From: Aerococcus suis
Lineage (GTDB): Bacteria > Bacillota > Bacilli > Lactobacillales > Aerococcaceae
Reading direction: 5' to 3'
Assembly (NCBI RefSeq): GCF_900176325.1
Contig: NZ_FWXK01000002.1
Coordinates: 248,001 to 312,000, forward strand
DNA: 64,000 nucleotides
The number at the start of each line of letters is the position of its first letter. Position 1 is the stretch's first letter. Below the pieces are notes generated by a model, which had not been told where the DNA came from, ran no database searches, and saw only the letters and a program-made list of their open reading frames with translations. The position numbers and the translations under genes were made by a program. Below are positions 1,685 to 59,001 of the stretch, in pieces.

Positions 1685-1711
1685 TTTTATACCTTACAGA
1701 ATCGATATTTA

Positions 1712-1990
1712 TTATACAAGTATATTTAATAATATCCCCAATGTGATAGATATTATTAAAGTTAAAGGTATGACTTTAATAATTAATGTATTTGAGGATA
1801 TATTGTCAAATCCTTTGTTGACTAAATAGTAAGAAGAAAAACTAGAAATTGTTATAACAGTTAAAAATAGACCTGTAAAAACAATATCGATATTTTTGAA
1901 AAAAGCACGAGAAAATAAAAAAATAAAAGTAGGAATATATAGATAACTAAGAGACCTAATGAAAGATATGTTCATATTTTCTTTGTCCAT
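1712..1990 (-). CDS. Small integral membrane protein, about 92 aa
   Basis: The start is placed at ATG 1990 because GAAAGGG lies directly upstream; an upstream ATG at 2020 has no such site. The product begins MDKENMNISFIRSLSYLYIP and has three predicted membrane segments (roughly residues 12-30, 35-57 and 70-90). No catalytic motif is visible. It heads a probable two-gene unit with the 92-aa protein at 1406-1684. Small three-helix proteins of this sort are common among bacteriocin-immunity and toxin-associated genes, but that role is only a guess. Confidence 0.5.
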   Translation of the reverse strand: MDKENMNISFIRSLSYLYIPTFIFLFSRAFFKNIDIVFTGLFLTVITISSFSSYYLVNKGFDNISSNTLIIKVIPLTLIISITLGILLNILV

Positions 1991-2304
1991 GGTAACCCTT
2001 TCATTAATAATCAAAAGCAATATTGTTACTTCTTATTTATCATACTTTCAAAATTGCAACTAATACATCATTTTATTTATAAGCGTTAAAGTTTTCTTTA
2101 TAAATTCCCAAAAATTGAAATCATTTTTGACAATAATCTCCTCCATAATTTAGGGGAAACTCGCCAATACGATATTTAGGACGATTATAAAGAATTGAAA
2201 TCTATTAAATAACTTGTTGCAAATGCTTCATTGTATTTTGTTATACTATAATCAAAATAATATTTTTAATATAAATCAAGAATCTATTAAAAACGGGAGT
2301 ATTT

Positions 2305-2914
2305 ATGTCATATACTAATAACCAAAATTATTTCAAAAGATCATTAAAAATATTTTCAATAGCAGTTGCTCTTTTCTTAATAAGTTTTATTTTATCAATC
2401 ATATTTAACCCATCAATTGATATTTTTACAAGTTTATCAAATTACGTGCCGTCTACTCTTAACAACTCTCAAGGATTGAACAAAGTATGGAAGTACATAA
2501 TGCATAATGGAGTTCAAATTCCTTGGCAGATGCTATTTCTTTTTCTAATACCTATACCATTTTTATATGCTTTAAATATGATTTTTACAAGTATTATTTC
2601 AGGTGTAGCATTTGGTTTCGCAATTCACCTCAGTTTTTATAAAGGCACTATTATGGTCATTTCTTCATTACCCCATACTTTACTGGAAATACTTGCCATG
2701 TGTTTTATAGTTAGTTGCTTATACAAATTAAATCGTGCAATCATCAGAAAAATATGTAATTTCTTTAGGAAATATAAAAAAAACAAATTATTCCTTTAGA
2801 CTTGCTTTAAGTAATTTATTTAAAGTATATTTTTCAATCGCGTTACCATTATTCGTAATTGCTGCATTTTTAGAAACCTATCTGACAGAACTAATATATA
2901 ACTTACTCACATAA
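2305..2914 (+). pseudogene. SpoIIM (DUF95)-family membrane protein, frameshifted at an A8 run
   Basis: The first open frame (2305-2799) encodes 164 residues with several membrane helices and the SpoIIM-like core (…WQMLFLFLIPIPFLYALN…), then stops at a TAG at 2797. Moving one base forward at the A8 run (2776-2783) opens a second frame up to a TAA at 2912, encoding a further helix ending IAAFLETYLTELIYNLL, which fits the family C-terminus. The joined product would be about 202 residues, the usual family length. A ribosome site GGGAG precedes the start. In non-spore-formers this family is often found beside bacteriocin or ABC-export genes; the role here is unknown. Either a one-base insertion has broken it or the run length is a sequencing error. 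Confidence 0.7.
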
Positions 2915-3137
2915 TCATACCTTCCGATGCATTTTAATTATTTTTCTATATTTAATGGATTTTCAAGTCACTGTCACAATATTTAATAAAATTTGTAGCG
3001 GCTAAATCCCATAACCATAAGGAATGGATCAATTGGTATAGTGATTCTACAATGATTTTGACGTAATCTAATTTGATGGTATATTGTACATTTAATTCTT
3101 ATTTCTGGATATAAAAAAGAAATAGCTAGACGAAATG
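2915..3137. other. Intergenic, unassigned open frame without start
   Basis: On the minus strand about 48 codons stay open between stops near 3105 and 2950 (reading …VKIIVESLYQLIHSLWLWDLA…) but without a plausible start codon or ribosome site. It could be a remnant or chance. No other feature is recognised. Confidence 0.3.
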
Positions 3138-8057: not shown

Positions 8058-10023
8058 TTATTTAATATACGGTTTTATTATACCATGTTCATACGCATTT
8101 AATAACTCTTTTAAATCAGCAACCTGTTTTTCTAATTCTACACCAACATCTGTCTGTCTAACGGTCATACGCTCAAGCTCTTGATCAACAACACGTCTAG
8201 TAGATACAATATCAATTTCTTCAGATACTGCTTCATCAATGTTTGTAAATGGTTGGTGTGTCACTAGTTGCATACCAAATGAATTATATAATAATGTATA
8301 TCCTGCTAATCCTGTCGTCGGTTGATAAGCTTTGCTGTACCCACCATCAATGACTAGCATTTTTCCATTAGCTTTAATTGGATTTTCGCCTTTACGTTCT
8401 TTCACTGGCGTATGTCCGTTGACAATATGCCCATGTTTTGGATCTACACCAAATTCCATTAAAATGCGTTCAACATATTTCTGTTCATTTCGATAGTCAT
8501 AATAAATATTTTTATATTCTTCATGAGTGGCTTTATCAGCTACATAGTATCGTTCAAAAGTCGTCATTTTTTCTTTTCCAAATAGAGAAGACCCTTCTCC
8601 TTGCCACAAATACCAGACATAATCGAGATAGCGATTTTCTTCTAATCCTCGGTTTCGATACGCCATACAGACAATCTGTTCAAATTTATCGAATAAAGCA
8701 CGCCCTGATAATACTTCTCCGTCAATGGCGACCTCCATAAAACTGCCATCAGAATTCATAGGCATACACCCATGATAAAGAAGGTTCTCATTATAGATTT
8801 TATATAAATTCCCCTTAGCAAATAAGAACGCAATATGTTTTTGTAAACGCTCTGAACCTAAAAAAGCCATTTGTAAACGATCGAGCACATATTCCTCTTC
8901 TTCGGTTAATTGATAAGGATTATCAGGATTAACTGTTGGGAATGAGGTGTTTTCTAAAGGATAATGTTTGCCATTAATTTCAACCGTTTTTTCTTTATAG
9001 TCAATATGGTCTAATAATAAGCGGTCTGACGTATTAAATTCTGGGTGACGATCAATAACTTGCTTTTCTAATTTGAATTGAATAATAGCTATTGCTTGAT
9101 GCATTCTAGCAATTTGCTTGGTTTCCTCTGGTAAGTGGTCCGTCTCAGGTGAGAGTTTAGGCATAAAACCCGTTAAATCAGAAGAGGCATATGCTTTTTT
9201 CCGCAAATGTCATTAAAGGACGTAGTGAAATACCATAAGCGTCTTCAATGATTTCTAAATTATCATAGCGTGCACAAATTCTTAAAACGTTCGCCATTAA
9301 TACCTTAGATCCACTCGCTGCTCCCATCCAAATAATATCGTGATTTCCCCATTGAATATCAAGCGATTTTTTTTGCATCAGTAAGTCAATAATTTTATCA
9401 GGAGCTGGACCACGATCATAAATATCTCCTAAAATATGGATATGATCGACAACTAATTCTTGAATTAATTCAGAAAAGGCACTAATTAATCGCTGTGAAG
9501 CATTTAATTGAATCACATTCTCAATAATATCACGATAATAATTTTCTTTATTCGTCAATATTGAATCTTTGAATAATAACTCTTCCATAATATAGGCCAT
9601 ATCTTGAGGCATTGCTTTACGAACTTTAGAGCGAGTATATTTAGAGACAACAAATTGTCCGAGTTCCACCAACTGAGCAATTGTTTGCCGTAAAAATTGT
9701 TTTTGCTGAATCGGATCGACCATTTCTCGAAGAATTAATTGCAGTTTTCTTTCTGGATAGTAAATAATCGTTGCTAAACGATTCATTTCCTCTTTAGTGA
9801 GTTGATTTTGAAAGACTTCCCGAATTTTTTCTTTAATATTTCCAGAGCCATTTCTTAAGACATGAGAAACGGCATCATACTCTCCATGTAAATCACTTAG
9901 AAAGTGTTCCGTTGCTTTCGGTAAAGCCATAATAGCTTCTAAATTAATTATTTCAGTAGTGACACTTGCGACATCAGGAAAATTTTGTGATAACAATTCT
10001 AAATATTTTAAATTATGATTCAT
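8058..10023 (-). pseudogene. fbp: Class III fructose-1,6-bisphosphatase, frameshifted at an A6 run
   Basis: The start is ATG 10023 with AAAGGAT upstream. The first frame carries the whole metallophosphatase core: [22 protein letters not shown] and WGNHD. It continues to PLMTFAEK, then leaves frame and stops at about 9178. The rest (HIVNGHTPVKE, VIDGGYSKAY and the C-terminal helices) continues from 9206 in a frame offset by one. With five instead of six As at 9195-9200 the frames join as FAEKAYASSD, giving about 654 residues, normal for FBPase class III. The enzyme makes fructose-6-phosphate in gluconeogenesis. Slippage to minus one at this run would not restore the frame, so a real one-base insertion or a sequencing error is likely. 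Confidence 0.85.
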
Positions 10024-10155
10024 TATTCTAATCCTTTCTCTGCCATAAGTCTCACTTATTATAAATGAAAACGGATTAATAAAAAAGATTAAACAATTAT
10101 CTTTAAAAATAATACAAAAATGTTCTTTCATTAATAATTTATACAATGGTTATGT

Positions 10156-24376: not shown

Positions 24377-25906
24377 CTATTTAATTAAACTATTTCCTGT
24401 CATTTCTTCAGGTTTGTCAATATTTAATAAATCTAGCATTGTTGGCGCAACATCAGCTAAACGGCCATCTGTACGTAAAGTAACACCTTTTTTCGTTACA
24501 ATGACTGGAACTGGAACCGTTGTATGAGCTGTGTTAGGTGAACCATCTTCATTTAACTCAGTATCAGCATTACCATGGTCGGCAAAAATAATCGCATGAC
24601 CATCTTTTTCGGTAATCGCATCAACGACACGACCTAGACATTCATCTACGGCTTCAATAGCTTTAATTGTTGCATCTAAGTCACCAGAATGACCAACCAT
24701 ATCCGGGTTAGCGAAGTTCAAAATAATCGCATCTTGACGATCGTTTTCAATTTCATCAACTAACGCATCAGTTACTTCGTATGCTGACATTTCTGGTTTT
24801 AAGTCATAAGTAGCGACTTTAGGTGAATTAATTAAAATACGTTTTTCACCAGTAAATTCAGTATTGCTACCACCATTCATAAAGAACGTAACATGTGGAT
24901 ATTTTTCAGTTTCAGCAATACGTAATTGATTTAAACCAGCATTTGAAAGAACTTCACCAATAACGTTTTTCAATGGTAGTGGTGGGAATGCAATTTCAGC
25001 TGGAATATCATCATTATATTTTGTCATCGTTACAAATTTAATATTTTCAGGAACACTTTGACGATCAAAATTATCCCAATCGATGGCTGTTGTAGCTGAT
25101 GATAATTGAATAGCACGGTCTGGACGGAAGTTAGCAAAAATAATGGCATCATTATCTTGAACGAGTCCAACTTCTTCGCCTTCTTCATTTGTTATAACGG
25201 CAGGAATAACAAATTCATCAGTGACGCCGTCAGCATAGCTATCTTCCACAACTTTTTGTGCAGATAAAGCTGTTTTACCTTTACCATTAAAGATAACATC
25301 ATAAGCTTTTTCAACACGTTCCCAACGATTGTCACGGTCCATAGCGTAATAACGACCAGATACAGAAGCGATTTGACCTAAGCCAACTTCTTCCATCGTA
25401 TTTTCGACATCTTCAATATATCCTGGAGCAGCATGTGGGTCAACGTCACGACCATCTAAGAAAGCATGTAAGAATAATTTTCTAACACCTTTTTTCTTAG
25501 CATCACGAATAATCGCTTTAATATGGTTGATATGTGAGTGAACCCCTCCATCAGATAATAAACCAAAAATGTGTAATGCTGATTGATTATCTAATGTATG
25601 ATTATAAGCAGAGTTTAACGCTTCATTTTCTAAGAAATCACCATCAGCAATTGCTTTGTCAATACGTGTTAAACTTTGATAAACGATTCGTCCAGCACCA
25701 ATATTGGTATGTCCAACTTCTGAGTTACCCATTTGACCGTCTGGTAATCCGACATCTAATCCAGATGCTTTCATTGTGGCATGTGGAAATTCGTTCCAAT
25801 AACGATCAAAATTTGGTTTCTTCGCTTGGTTTACTGCGTTACCATAGTTTTCTTTACGCCAACCAAAACCATCAAGAATGATGATAGCAACAGGTGACTT
25901 TTTCAT
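24377..25906 (-). CDS. gpmI: 2,3-bisphosphoglycerate-independent phosphoglycerate mutase
   Basis: A 509-residue alkaline-phosphatase-superfamily enzyme interconverting 3- and 2-phosphoglycerate with Mn2+. The metal/nucleophile motifs IILDGFGWR at the start, [17 protein letters not shown] (nucleophilic Ser) and [10 protein letters not shown] are intact. The ATG follows the tpiA stop directly, using GGAGGCGC at the tpiA end as ribosome site. Its dependence on Mn2+ makes the manganese riboswitch at 56118 physiologically relevant to this organism. Confidence 0.97.
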
Positions 25907-50290: not shown

Positions 50291-50736
50291 CTATTCCAAA
50301 TTTCTTAAGTACGGAATAATCAAAATCAACGAGATGATAAAAGCTATTCCATCTGCAACAGGTGTTGCCCACGCAATGCCGAATATCCCGAATATACTAT
50401 TAAACAAGACCATAAAAAAGACATCCAAAGTCCCTTTTCTAAGTAATGACAGAATGATAGGTTGTCTTTTTCCCCCCGTAGCTTGAAAAATCGTAATAAC
50501 CATAAAATTAATCACCGTAGTGATACAAGCAAGACAGATAATTCTTAGAAATGTCTGTCCAAACTGTACAGTTTGTGGATCCTTGATAAAAACTGAACTA
50601 TTGGTGCAGCACCAAATAGTAAAAGTATTGTTCCGCATATAGCAACACTAATGCTGTAAACGACCGATGTTTGAATAGCTTGCTTCATTCTATCGATATT
50701 TCGAGAGGAATAATTATATCCAATCAAAGGTGTCAA
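50291..50736 (-). pseudogene. MATE-family efflux protein, truncated and frameshifted
   Basis: The minus-strand frame from 50736 reads TPLIGYNYSSRN, a MATE mid-protein motif, and continues to FGAAPIVQFLS before going out of frame. The C-terminal part resumes as FIKDPQTVQFGQTFLR and continues with helices up to about 50291. A T5 run at 50588-50592 that would need to be T6 explains the break. The N-terminal half (about 250 residues) is missing: the fragment abuts the histidine phosphatase fragment at 50723. MATE proteins are Na+- or H+-driven drug exporters; this one is dead. Confidence 0.75.
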
Positions 50737-56067: not shown

Positions 56068-56096
56068 TTGCTTTAAAAATTATTCTTCGCTATAAT
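56068..56096 (+). promoter_or_regulatory. Promoter of the riboswitch-ATPase unit
   Basis: TTGCTT (56068-56073) and TATAAT (56091-56096) with a 17-bp spacer, just before the riboswitch. Confidence 0.8.
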
Positions 56097-56117
56097 TAGC
56101 TTATCGAAATTCGTTTT

Positions 56118-56247
56118 CCATAAGGGAGTAATCAGCGGCTCTAGTCGTGATAGTATCAACAGACAGGTAGACGATAGCTACTGGTACTATTTGAAATGGT
56201 GAGACTTATGGCTACTGTTCTTCTATAGTAGTCATAAGTCTTTTTTT
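56118..56247 (+). promoter_or_regulatory. yybP-ykoY (manganese) riboswitch with terminator
   Basis: The leader carries P1 arms CCATAAG (56118-56124) and CTTATGG (56205-56211), enclosing the conserved GGGAGTA after the 5' arm and GGTGAGAC before the 3' arm, and internal hairpins of the yybP-ykoY class. The terminator stem GACTTATGGCTACT (56203-56216) with AGTAGTCATAAGTC (56227-56240) and T7 competes with P1 for the same bases. Mn2+ binding should stabilise P1 and allow read-through, an ON switch. The regulated gene is the P-type ATPase behind it. Confidence 0.85.
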
Positions 56248-56289
56248 ATGAAAACGAACGGAGAAAAATTATTAAAAGGAGTGAATAGA

Positions 56290-59001
56290 ATGTCTGATTT
56301 AAATCAGCAAAAGTTTTTTGCTCAAGACATTGATTCTGTTAAACAAACGCTAGATTCCTCTGAGCAAGGATTATCAGCGCAAGAAGCAAAACAACGTCTT
56401 GATAAATACGGAGCAAATGAAATCCGTGAAGGCGAACAAAAATCGACGCTTCAAAAATTCATTGATCAGTTTAAAGACCTAATGATTATTATTCTTCTAA
56501 TTGCAGCAGGTCTATCTGTTGCCTTAGAAGGTAGCGAAGGTTTAGTTGACGCTATTATTATTCTTGCTGTTGTATTAATTAATGCCATTTTAGGGGTTAT
56601 TCAAGAAAATAAAGCCGAAGACGCTATCAACGCATTAAAAGAAATGTCTTCACCAAAAGCAACGGTTATCCGTGATGGTGAACAGGTGGCAATTGATTCC
56701 AGAGAAATTGTCCCAGGAGATGTCGTTGTTCTTGAAGCCGGAGATGTGGTCCCAGCTGACCTTCGTTTATTTAAAGCAACTTCATTACAAATCGAAGAAG
56801 CTGCCCTTACCGGTGAATCAGTTCCTGTTACTAAAGAACTAGATTTAGTTGCTGAAGATGCAGGTATTGGTGACCGTACAAATATGGCTTTTTCAAGTAC
56901 TAATGTGACTTACGGTCGTGGTCAAGGGATTGTCACTGGTACAGGAATGGATACCGAAGTTGGTAATATTGCCGAAATGCTAGAAGGAGCAGAAGGTAAA
57001 ACCACTCCACTTCAAGAAAACTTAGACAGTTTAACGAAATTCTTAACTTACGCGATCGTTGCGATTGCCGTCTTTATTTTTGTGATTGGTTTATTTAATG
57101 GACGTGAGTGGGTTGAAATGCTATTAACAGCTATTTCAATTGCTGTTGCTGCGCTTCCTGAAGGTCTACCTGCTATTACGACTATTATTTTAGCTCTAGG
57201 GACACAAAAAATGTCTGACAGAAATGCATTGGTACGTAAATTACCTGCTGTCGAAACACTAGGTGGTACTGAAGTTATTTGTTCTGATAAAACAGGGACA
57301 CTAACTCAAAACAAAATGACCATTGAAAAAGTTTTCTACAACGGTGAAATGCATGATGCCGCTGAAGATATTGATTTCAATGAACCAGTCTTTAGAATTA
57401 TGAACATGGCAAATGACACAAACATTAATTCTAACGGTGAATTAGCTGGTGATCCAACTGAGACAGCTATGATTCAATTTGGATTTGATAAAGGATTTGA
57501 TGTCCGTGAAGTCTTGGAAACTCAACCACGTTTAGGGGAAGTTCCATTCGACTCTACTCGTAAAATGTCATCTACGTTCCATCCAACTTCTGAAGCATTT
57601 AAAGATCAAGCTCCTTATGTGTCAATGACTAAAGGTGCTCCTGATGTTTTAATTTCAAACTGTAACTACTATTATGATAACGGTGAAATTAAAGAATTAA
57701 CGGAAGATGTCCGCGAAAAATTACTTGATACTAACCATTCTATGGCGACACAAGCACTTCGCGTTTTAGCAATGGCATTCAAATATTATGATGAAGAACC
57801 TGCTAATTATGATTCAGAAACCTTGGAAAATGATTTAGTATTTGCTGGACTTATTGGTGAAATCGACCCTGAACGTCCAGAAGCTAAAGAAGCGATTACT
57901 AAAGCAAAAGGTGCTGGAATCCGTACAGTTATGATTACTGGTGACCACAAAGATACCGCAGCCGCAATTGCCGCTCGTTTAGGTATTATTGACGAAGGCG
58001 ACGATTCTTCAGTAACCACTGGTGCTCATTTAGATGAGTTATCTGATGAAGAATTAGCTGAAAAAGTTGAACATTATTCTGTTTATGCTCGTGTATCCCC
58101 ACAACATAAAGTGCGCATTGTTGAAGCTTGGCAATCACATGATAAAGTTGTTGCGATGACTGGTGATGGGGTTAACGACGCTCCTTCATTAAAACAATCA
58201 GATATCGGTATTGGTATGGGAATTACTGGTACAGAAGTATCTAAAGGTGCTTCAGACATGGTATTAGCAGATGATAACTTTGCAACTATCGTTACAGCTG
58301 TTGAAGAAGGTCGTAAAGTCTTCTCAAATATTCAAAAAGCTGTTCAATTCTTGCTTTCTGCTAACTTAGGTGAAGTAATGACCTTATTCTTCGCTACAAT
58401 GTTAGACTGGCAGATTTTAGAACCTATTCATATTTTATGGATTAACCTAGTAACAGATACTTTCCCTGCTATTGCGTTAGGTCTTGAAGACGCAGAATCT
58501 GATGTTATGGAACATGATCCACGTGGTCGTAAAACTGACTTACTTTCTGGTGGTGTCCTCGCATCAATCATTTATCAAGGGTTATATGAAGGTGGCATTA
58601 CCTTATTCGTTTATTGGTATGCACAACATATCATGCAAGTCGAACATGTTGATGCTGAAGCTATGGCATTCTTAACCTTAGCCTTCATCCAATTGTTCCA
58701 CGCATACAACTCTAAGTCTGTCTTCAAATCACTATTTGCAACGAATCCATTTGGTAACAAATGGTTAAATATTGGAGTGTTAGCTTCAACCGTCTTAATG
58801 TTAATTACTGTCTTTGTTCCAGGATTAAATAACGCCTTTGGTACCAACCACTTAGTAGGCGATCCTAACTCTGTGACGATGTGGACAGTCGTTATCTTAG
58901 CTGCCGCTTCAATTATTGTTTACACCGAAATTATTAAAGCTATTTTACGCGCTACTGGTTATGCTGAAAAAGCTCAATCAAAAACGAAAAGTAAAAAATA
59001 A
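56290..59001 (+). CDS. P-type cation-transporting ATPase, probable Mn2+ (or Ca2+) exporter
   Basis: The start is ATG 56290 behind AAAAGGAGTG; the ATG at 56248 directly follows the terminator and lacks a ribosome site. The 903-residue product is a type II P-ATPase: N-terminal cation domain, actuator motif LTGESVP (about residue 165), phosphorylation site ICSDKTGTLTQNK (about 330), hinge MTGDGVNDAPSLK (about 620) and ten membrane helices. Its control by the manganese riboswitch and similarity in layout to Lactococcus YoaB support Mn2+ export; sequence alone would also allow Ca2+. Confidence 0.9.
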   Translation: MSDLNQQKFFAQDIDSVKQTLDSSEQGLSAQEAKQRLDKYGANEIREGEQKSTLQKFIDQFKDLMIIILLIAAGLSVALEGSEGLVDAIIILAVVLINAILGVIQENKAEDAINALKEMSSPKATVIRDGEQVAIDSREIVPGDVVVLEAGDVVPADLRLFKATSLQIEEAALTGESVPVTKELDLVAEDAGIGDRTNMAFSSTNVTYGRGQGIVTGTGMDTEVGNIAEMLEGAEGKTTPLQENLDSLTKFLTYAIVAIAVFIFVIGLFNGREWVEMLLTAISIAVAALPEGLPAITTIILALGTQKMSDRNALVRKLPAVETLGGTEVICSDKTGTLTQNKMTIEKVFYNGEMHDAAEDIDFNEPVFRIMNMANDTNINSNGELAGDPTETAMIQFGFDKGFDVREVLETQPRLGEVPFDSTRKMSSTFHPTSEAFKDQAPYVSMTKGAPDVLISNCNYYYDNGEIKELTEDVREKLLDTNHSMATQALRVLAMAFKYYDEEPANYDSETLENDLVFAGLIGEIDPERPEAKEAITKAKGAGIRTVMITGDHKDTAAAIAARLGIIDEGDDSSVTTGAHLDELSDEELAEKVEHYSVYARVSPQHKVRIVEAWQSHDKVVAMTGDGVNDAPSLKQSDIGIGMGITGTEVSKGASDMVLADDNFATIVTAVEEGRKVFSNIQKAVQFLLSANLGEVMTLFFATMLDWQILEPIHILWINLVTDTFPAIALGLEDAESDVMEHDPRGRKTDLLSGGVLASIIYQGLYEGGITLFVYWYAQHIMQVEHVDAEAMAFLTLAFIQLFHAYNSKSVFKSLFATNPFGNKWLNIGVLASTVLMLITVFVPGLNNAFGTNHLVGDPNSVTMWTVVILAAASIIVYTEIIKAILRATGYAEKAQSKTKSKK

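Follow-up and report, generated by a model that had tools for sequence, protein, structure and literature searches.

A probable manganese riboswitch of the yybP-ykoY superfamily, in three-way-junction form, precedes a P-type cation ATPase gene in Aerococcus suis

To which class does the structured leader in front of a P-type ATPase gene of Aerococcus suis belong, and what might it sense? The locus lies in a stretch of 64,000 nucleotides (NCBI RefSeq assembly GCF_900176325.1, contig NZ_FWXK01000002.1, positions 248,001 to 312,000 of the forward strand), hereafter the window, to whose numbering all positions refer. A first-pass annotation made from the sequence alone had proposed a manganese riboswitch of the yybP-ykoY class. 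Our analysis leads with high confidence to a closely similar view: the leader is very probably a transcription-activating yybP-ykoY (manganese) riboswitch of the type with a three-way junction that occurs in Lactobacillales, and its presumed ligand is Mn2+ or possibly Mn2+/Ca2+. The fold, the sharing of one strand by two structures, the linkage to the gene and the kinship with canonical yybP-ykoY leaders were all observed by sequence comparison.

The leader occupies positions 56118-56247 on the plus strand, as do all elements of the locus named below, and consists of P1, L1, a side hairpin, and P3 with L3. The 5' arm of P1 (CCATAAG, 56118-56124), supported by the sequence, aligned leaders and folding, runs into the 5' side of L1, GGGAGUA (56124-56130), the first G of which is also paired in P1. 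P2 (5' arm 56131-56133, partner 56198-56200) was obtained from aligned leaders and folding, and the side hairpin of the three-way junction (56135-56148) has five pairs, all five with changes on both sides. The 5' arm of P3 (56149-56158) ends in A56158, which pairs with U56182 at the start of the 3' arm (56182-56191); this arm begins with UGG and is completed to CUGG by C56181 just before it. Between the two arms, the metal-site segment of L3 is ACA (56159-56161; canonically UCA), placed by comparison of L3 sequences and by the metal contacts presumed for the family. The 3' side of L1, GAGAC (56201-56205), was recognized from the sequence and from leaders of other families, and its last C is paired in P1. 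GGGAGUA thus stands opposite AGAC above the P1 stem, as in yybP-ykoY.

The 3' arm of P1 (CTTATGG, 56205-56211) is common to an intrinsic terminator, as indicated by the sequence, by folding and by the strand-sharing count given below. The terminator, identified by a terminator scan and by folding, has an 18-pair stem (56201-56242), a 6-nt loop and a run of seven T (56241-56247), and ends 42 nt 5' of the ATPase gene; one terminator was found in the leader, versus 0.1 expected from shuffles. The first-pass annotation had placed the P1 3' arm inside the left arm of the terminator, making the two states mutually exclusive, and its coordinates for this arm were exact. The left arm that it gave for the terminator, 56203-56216, does lie within the left arm but is only part of it. 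Folded alone and without constraints, the RNA from 56118 to 56211 adopts the comparative structure including P1, P2, the side hairpin and P3 (-22.4 kcal/mol). The whole leader favors the terminator, with -42.7 kcal/mol versus -29.5 kcal/mol for the P1 state, the latter value being obtained by direct evaluation of that structure. The region 56100-56250 has a folding z-score of -4.0, and one of 200 shuffles folds equally well.

The architecture was compared across leaders in two alignments. The first (A1) contains 35 of 52 leaders matched by motif, those dropped being nine duplicates or near-duplicates, one leader with a long insert (L031) and seven outgroup leaders (L043-L047, L052, L053); we drew the structure of A1 from these same sequences. 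In A1, 98.4% of the cells pair, compared to 21.5-44.0% in slid controls, and 17 of 21 pairs have changed on both sides, compared to 10.4 in shuffles. The invariance of L1 in A1 is no evidence, since the 35 leaders were picked by that motif. The second alignment (A3) contains 39 leaders from other Lactobacillales families and none from the family of the window; these were found either with R1, a covariance model whose sequences come mostly from the family of the window, or with the Rfam model RF02617 (SSRC10), so the choice was not blind. From A3, RNAalifold returned the same architecture with 25 pairs, independently of the structure drawn for A1; 96.5% of the cells are paired and 18 pairs show changes on both sides. 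GGGAGUA in L1 was invariant in all 39 of these leaders, which had been picked from model matches.

A covariance model made from the 39 sequences of A3 (R2) gave a score of 74.8 bits on the window. In the genome of A. suis, the leader is the sole strong place for R2, with an E value of 6.4e-17 against 5.25 for the next; a second place of R1 in that genome (C3:166526, E 2.76) was rejected. RF02617, a model made independently by others, found the leader in the same genome at E 3.6e-5. R2 was further given 16 of 30 fetched loci, at which RF00080, the Rfam model of yybP-ykoY, scores above its cut-off. All 16 were matched at the same place and on the same strand, once each, with E values of 1.3e-7 to 0.03 in 105 kb, and none of the 30 sources contained a further match. 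R2 also matched one MntP leader and one TerC leader. Apart from its loci above the cut-off, all of which belong to a single family, f7 (probably Listeriaceae by inference), RF00080 gave 20 further matches in the order at E 0.1, and R1 or R2 coincides with 18 of them: 15 in R1 genome searches, two in R1 locus searches (L170 and L169, the latter weak at 21.8 bits) and one with R2 (L212). The remaining two, in genomes G030 and G135 (loci L210, L211), lie inside long open reading frames (ORFs) and are probably false, as is a weak R1 match (L207).

Among 299 genomes of the class, R1 matched 27 at E 0.01. Two of these 27 do not belong to the order; the match of one precedes a gene for MntP (PF02659) and that of the other a gene for TerC (PF03741), which we take to be manganese genes and classical yybP-ykoY targets. 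At E 0.1, R1 matched 195 of the 246 genomes of the order, representing 57 of 64 genera; no f7 match was present among the matches listed, and R1 searched directly on f7 loci gave weak matches at five of five. The assignment to the yybP-ykoY class made at first pass thus holds by the cross-matches between R2 and RF00080, by L1, by gene linkage and by covariation.

The strand sharing was counted in 121 distinct leaders. The strand following AGAC pairs with the P1 5' arm in 699 of 726 pairs (shuffled mean 624, maximum 639), and the same strand with a downstream terminator arm in 1181 of 1210 (shuffled mean 1051, maximum 1071), the latter count taking the best downstream placement and so being biased upward. 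The terminator arm is followed by 6-11 T within 12 nt. Where the middle strand has changed, in 46 of the 121 leaders, at least five of six P1 pairs were kept in 41 and at least nine of ten terminator pairs in 45. Examples of such compensated strands are CTTACG with CGTAGG and GCGTAAG, CGCATA with TATGCG and GTATGTG, and CCTAAG with CTTAGG and TCTTAGG. Seven streptococcal leaders among the 121 have a weaker P1, with four to five of six pairs. As far as sequence can indicate, a shared strand that covaries with both of its partners is what a metal-ON terminator switch would require; it says nothing on the ligand.

The gene behind the leader (56290-59001) encodes a type II P-type cation ATPase of 903 amino acids with a complete set of P-type domains, as had been annotated and as was confirmed by profile, structure and domain comparison. 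Its open frame begins at ATG 56248; translation probably starts at ATG 56290, with GGAG at 56278-56281 as the ribosome-binding site recognized by eye. A probable promoter, with TTGCTT at 56068-56073, a spacing of 17 nt and a perfect -10 box TATAAT at 56091-56096 (9 of 12 matches), sits 22 nt 5' of P1. It was missed by a consensus scan, which demands four of six matches in the -35 box; the best promoter score averages 9.4 over the 121 leaders, compared to 8.2 in shuffles. By its sequence the ATPase appears to be of the cation exporter type, and related leaders precede MntP and TerC genes. Among relatives of solved structure, the Listeria Ca2+-ATPase lmo0841 was closest (E 3.3e-217), followed by SERCA and SPCA1. 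A search with the ATPase in the named genome collection yielded 29 loci, the best match being from Aerococcus kribbianus (84%).

The linkage of leader and ATPase gene was seen from both sides. A leader is present at 23 of the 29 ATPase loci found by protein (22 by motif, L040 by RF02617), at 30-268 nt from the ATPase match in 21 of the 23. Conversely, 29 of 30 RF02617 loci of the window's family, window included, have an ATPase homologue directly behind on the same strand, 25 of these being 51-100% identical to that of the window (itself the 100%) and four near 40% (L006, L007, L008, L019). An ATPase gene also lies behind the leader in 30 of 30 further loci (L060-L089), several identical to earlier places, and on the same strand in all 12 loci fetched of the 32 at which RF02617 scores above its cut-off. 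Another 40 fetched places gave 36 ATPases and four KUP transporters, and 39 more loci gave 25 ATPases, nine KUP, one MntP-like and one TerC-like gene, with three inside ORFs; the lists overlap and are not additive. Leaders also occur before another P-type ATPase, a paralogue with about 40% identity to that of the window (L006, L007, L008, L019, L204-L206); in genome G004, for instance, both pumps are preceded by a leader (L007, L073).

In three Lactobacillales families, leaders of the yybP-ykoY kind precede genes for KUP potassium transporters (L163, L170, L171, L172, L195-L197, L199-L203, L212, L226, L229, L239; Pfam K_trans for L163). Four that were examined have promoter-like sequence, judged by eye, and an overlapping terminator, and R2 confirmed all 10 KUP leaders given to it. 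A motif scan placed a leader within about 600 nt at 13 of 30 fetched KUP loci. The KUP loci were drawn from 40 genomes, a selection rich in those already known to have leaders, of which 29 gave 31 matches in all, and the scan missed at least one genome (G096) in which an R1 match precedes KUP. One would not expect a potassium importer to be under a metal riboswitch, and these cases point to a possible, testable connection between the sensing of divalent metals and the uptake of potassium.

How the switch would work, that is its ligand, docking, ON direction and direction of transport, can be proposed by analogy with the family. Without metal, the P1 3' strand would be taken by the terminator and transcripts would end at about 56247. 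At high cytosolic Mn2+, or possibly Ca2+, L1 and L3 would hold a metal ion between them, which would dock the two legs; docking would keep P1 closed and thereby block the terminator, so that the P-type ATPase is made and the ion exported. The ligand may be both Mn2+ and Ca2+, as reported for Streptococcus pneumoniae.

At the presumed metal site the window carries a variant. Its L3 is UCAACA/CUGG, the canonical consensus being UCGUCA/CCGG; we take A56158 to be position 38 and 56159-56161 to be positions 39-41, and the metal contacts are those presumed for the family. The CA dinucleotide of L3 is retained. Among the 121 leaders, the closing pair is G38-C in 15 and A38-U in 106 and is never mixed, a compensated change, which indicates that the canonical and variant forms of L3 are tied together. 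Position 39 is U in all 15 leaders with G-C; the 106 with A-U comprise 64 with A, 41 with C and one with U at this position. A Fisher statistic on these L3 counts takes no account of relatedness among the leaders. The scan required GGGAGTA, C40, A41, a paired P3 and AGAC, with leaders such as L001 and L004 outside it, and therefore cannot show conservation of those elements; its register was set by a C or U opposite the last G and is otherwise ambiguous in 44 of the 121. We consider it possible, if rather unlikely, that Lactobacillales mostly carry a distinct subclass of manganese riboswitch, with a three-way junction, A-U in L3 and A or C at position 39. Such a subclass might be tuned to a different ion mix, for example Ca2+ over Mn2+, and might control the P-type ATPase and in several lineages KUP, tying divalent sensing to potassium uptake, and a U at the metal contact of L001 may have retuned a copy for CNNM/CorC. 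Through the change beside the metal site, nature itself offers a way to test which features determine the choice of metal.

Several observations weigh against the assignment to a manganese riboswitch. The first-pass annotation had named the lack of a covariance-model hit as refuting its proposal, and RF00080 indeed gives no match in the window, either at the gathering score or at E 10, nor over the whole A. suis genome; at the gathering score, cmscan of the window returned one tmRNA, two tRNAs and nothing else. RF02617, the best Rfam score at the leader (35.3 bits, E 3.5e-5, in a cmscan of the region at E 10), remains below its gathering cut-off of 56 bits. The L3 departs from the canonical one in its closing pair (G-C to A-U) and at position 39 (U to A), and in A1 the presumed metal-contact adenine is absent in two of 35 leaders (U in L001, G in L004). 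The ATPase scores below the curated cut-offs of both Ca2+-ATPase equivalogs (PMR1 and SERCA), so sequence does not settle which ion it moves. Of the 29 ATPase relatives from the protein search, six (L048, L049, L050, L056, L057, L058) show no such leader, and two others (L047, L053) have it as far as 1.9 and 1.0 kb upstream. Finally, the L001 leader (1498-1629 of that locus; R2 56.8 bits) precedes a CNNM/CorC_HlyC gene (1707-3110) instead of an ATPase; its metal-contact U is a possible natural retuning of the sensor. CNNM as a general target was rejected, as a leader was found at one of 17 CNNM loci in 12 genomes, that of L001.

The failure of RF00080 is not decisive, because the model also misses the probable Streptococcus genomes despite the published S. 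pneumoniae mgtA riboswitch. At E 0.1 it matched no genome of this group (f4) among the 246 of the order Lactobacillales, nor the Lactococcus lactis control, which was matched at E 10 only; at E 1 it also misses a canonical-looking leader of Caloramator (L045). It matched 52 of the 246 genomes at E 0.1, and the 34 above its cut-off all belong to f7, in which nine examples examined precede TerC-like genes, one confirmed by Pfam. With these 34 genomes of one family set against 195 of the 246 matched by R1, RF00080 largely fails to see the manganese riboswitch that lactic acid bacteria carry. As this model does not separate members in Lactobacillales, the class was decided by cross-hits of other models, and we read its non-detection of the window leader as a limit of the model. 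RF02617 matched 155 of the 246 genomes, 32 of them above its cut-off; in 60 genomes of the window's family it matched 47 at E 10 and none above the cut-off. The large genome searches ran with stricter filters, which lose weak matches. Weak Rfam matches at the leader to BTnc201, snoR21, bglG, mir-14 and PART1_2 were set aside as chance.

RF02617 is filed as a small RNA (sRNA), which raises the question of whether the leader is instead an independent trans-acting sRNA with its own terminator. We regard this as highly improbable. Besides the RF02617 score, the sRNA explanation can draw on Tesorero et al., who place SSRC10 of Streptococcus pyogenes between SPyM3_0439 and the putative calcium transporter gene SPyM3_0440, both drawn in one direction, and report Northern blot signals and RACE ends at the terminator (PMC3675131). 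A terminated riboswitch, however, would give the identical Northern and RACE result, which explains both the position and the ends. RF02617 moreover runs in the sense of the ATPase gene and precedes same-strand homologues at 29 of 30 and 12 of 12 fetched loci, the strand shared by P1 and terminator covaries on both sides, and a separate listing gives S. pyogenes one yybp-ykoY 5' UTR (PMC6431027). According to Tesorero et al. (PMC3675131), the probe that detected SSRC10 was the one directed at the complement of the reference strand; given the sense of RF02617, this counts against a terminated leader unless the labels differ. The word 'yybP' is absent from the text of that paper, and the one other paper found for SSRC10 was unrelated. 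Most likely, SSRC10 represents the Mn2+/Ca2+ riboswitch of streptococci in its terminated form; the discrepancy in probe strand wants clearing up. That the leader is a plain intrinsic terminator with chance pairing and no sensing is scarcely credible: taken by itself, the terminator does have a very high stability (-24.6 kcal/mol), but the covariation of the aptamer and the R1 matches across the order refute this explanation.

The more serious question concerns the ion. The same RNA and switch might respond mainly to Ca2+, to another divalent ion or to pH through it, with the pump acting as a Ca2+ exporter; we hold this to be rather unlikely. The mgtA leader of S. pneumoniae is described as sensing Mn2+/Ca2+ and binding Ca2+ more tightly (PMC11434433, PMC9495176), the window ATPase is nearest to the Ca2+-ATPase lmo0841, and L3 is altered next to the metal site. 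RNA sequencing in Streptococcus agalactiae showed transcripts terminating within the yybP-ykoY leader that precedes a Ca2+/Mg2+ ATPase gene, and this leader responded to acid pH (PMC4448216), so that another or an indirect signal is possible. On the other hand, transcription in S. pneumoniae is described as being activated more by Mn2+ than by Ca2+, R1 and R2 also match leaders of the manganese genes mntP and terC, and the window keeps the CA dinucleotide of L3. We take Mn2+, possibly together with Ca2+, to be the most likely ligand of the leader.

Elsewhere in the window, the Mn-dependent mutase GpmI, which the first-pass annotation had brought forward, is indeed encoded at 24377-25906; lying 30 kb away without a shown link, it adds no evidence for a Mn2+ switch and was rejected as such. 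On the minus strand, two overlapping ORFs at 8058-10146 resemble, by eye, the halves of one class III fructose-1,6-bisphosphatase gene, suggesting a frameshift or a sequencing error, and a 115-amino-acid ORF at 50291-50638 resembles, again by eye, the C-terminal remnant of a MATE-type transporter.

Compared to known systems, the window leader has the RNA shape of SSRC10 of S. pyogenes (RF02617), and in both cases a homologue of the P-type ATPase follows; SSRC10, however, is filed as a trans-acting sRNA. With yybP-ykoY as modeled by RF00080, and with yoaB of L. lactis, which we take to have a four-way junction, it has in common L1 GGGAGUA/AGAC, the CA and neighboring pairs of L3, the overlap of P1 and terminator, and a cation exporter behind; it differs in its three-way junction, the A-U closing pair of L3 and A at position 39, and in being missed by RF00080. 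The first-pass annotation had likened the arrangement to yoaB, which is correct as to the P-type ATPase, whereas the closest case is the three-way mgtA riboswitch of S. pneumoniae. This riboswitch, like yoaB named in PMC9495176, is described as a yybP-ykoY aptamer with a three-way junction that senses Mn2+/Ca2+ and activates transcription (PMC11434433, PMC9495176), with a P-type ATPase behind, and the window leader resembles it in aptamer, junction, gene and the proposed mode of control. The streptococcal leaders examined differ in their canonical L3 (UCGUCA/CCGG, against UCAACA/CUGG in the window), and the ATPases of the 12 fetched RF02617 loci above cut-off are 54-58% identical to that of the window. 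Both the kind and the arrangement of the window riboswitch are thus already known, and we regard it as an ordinary, well-supported case.

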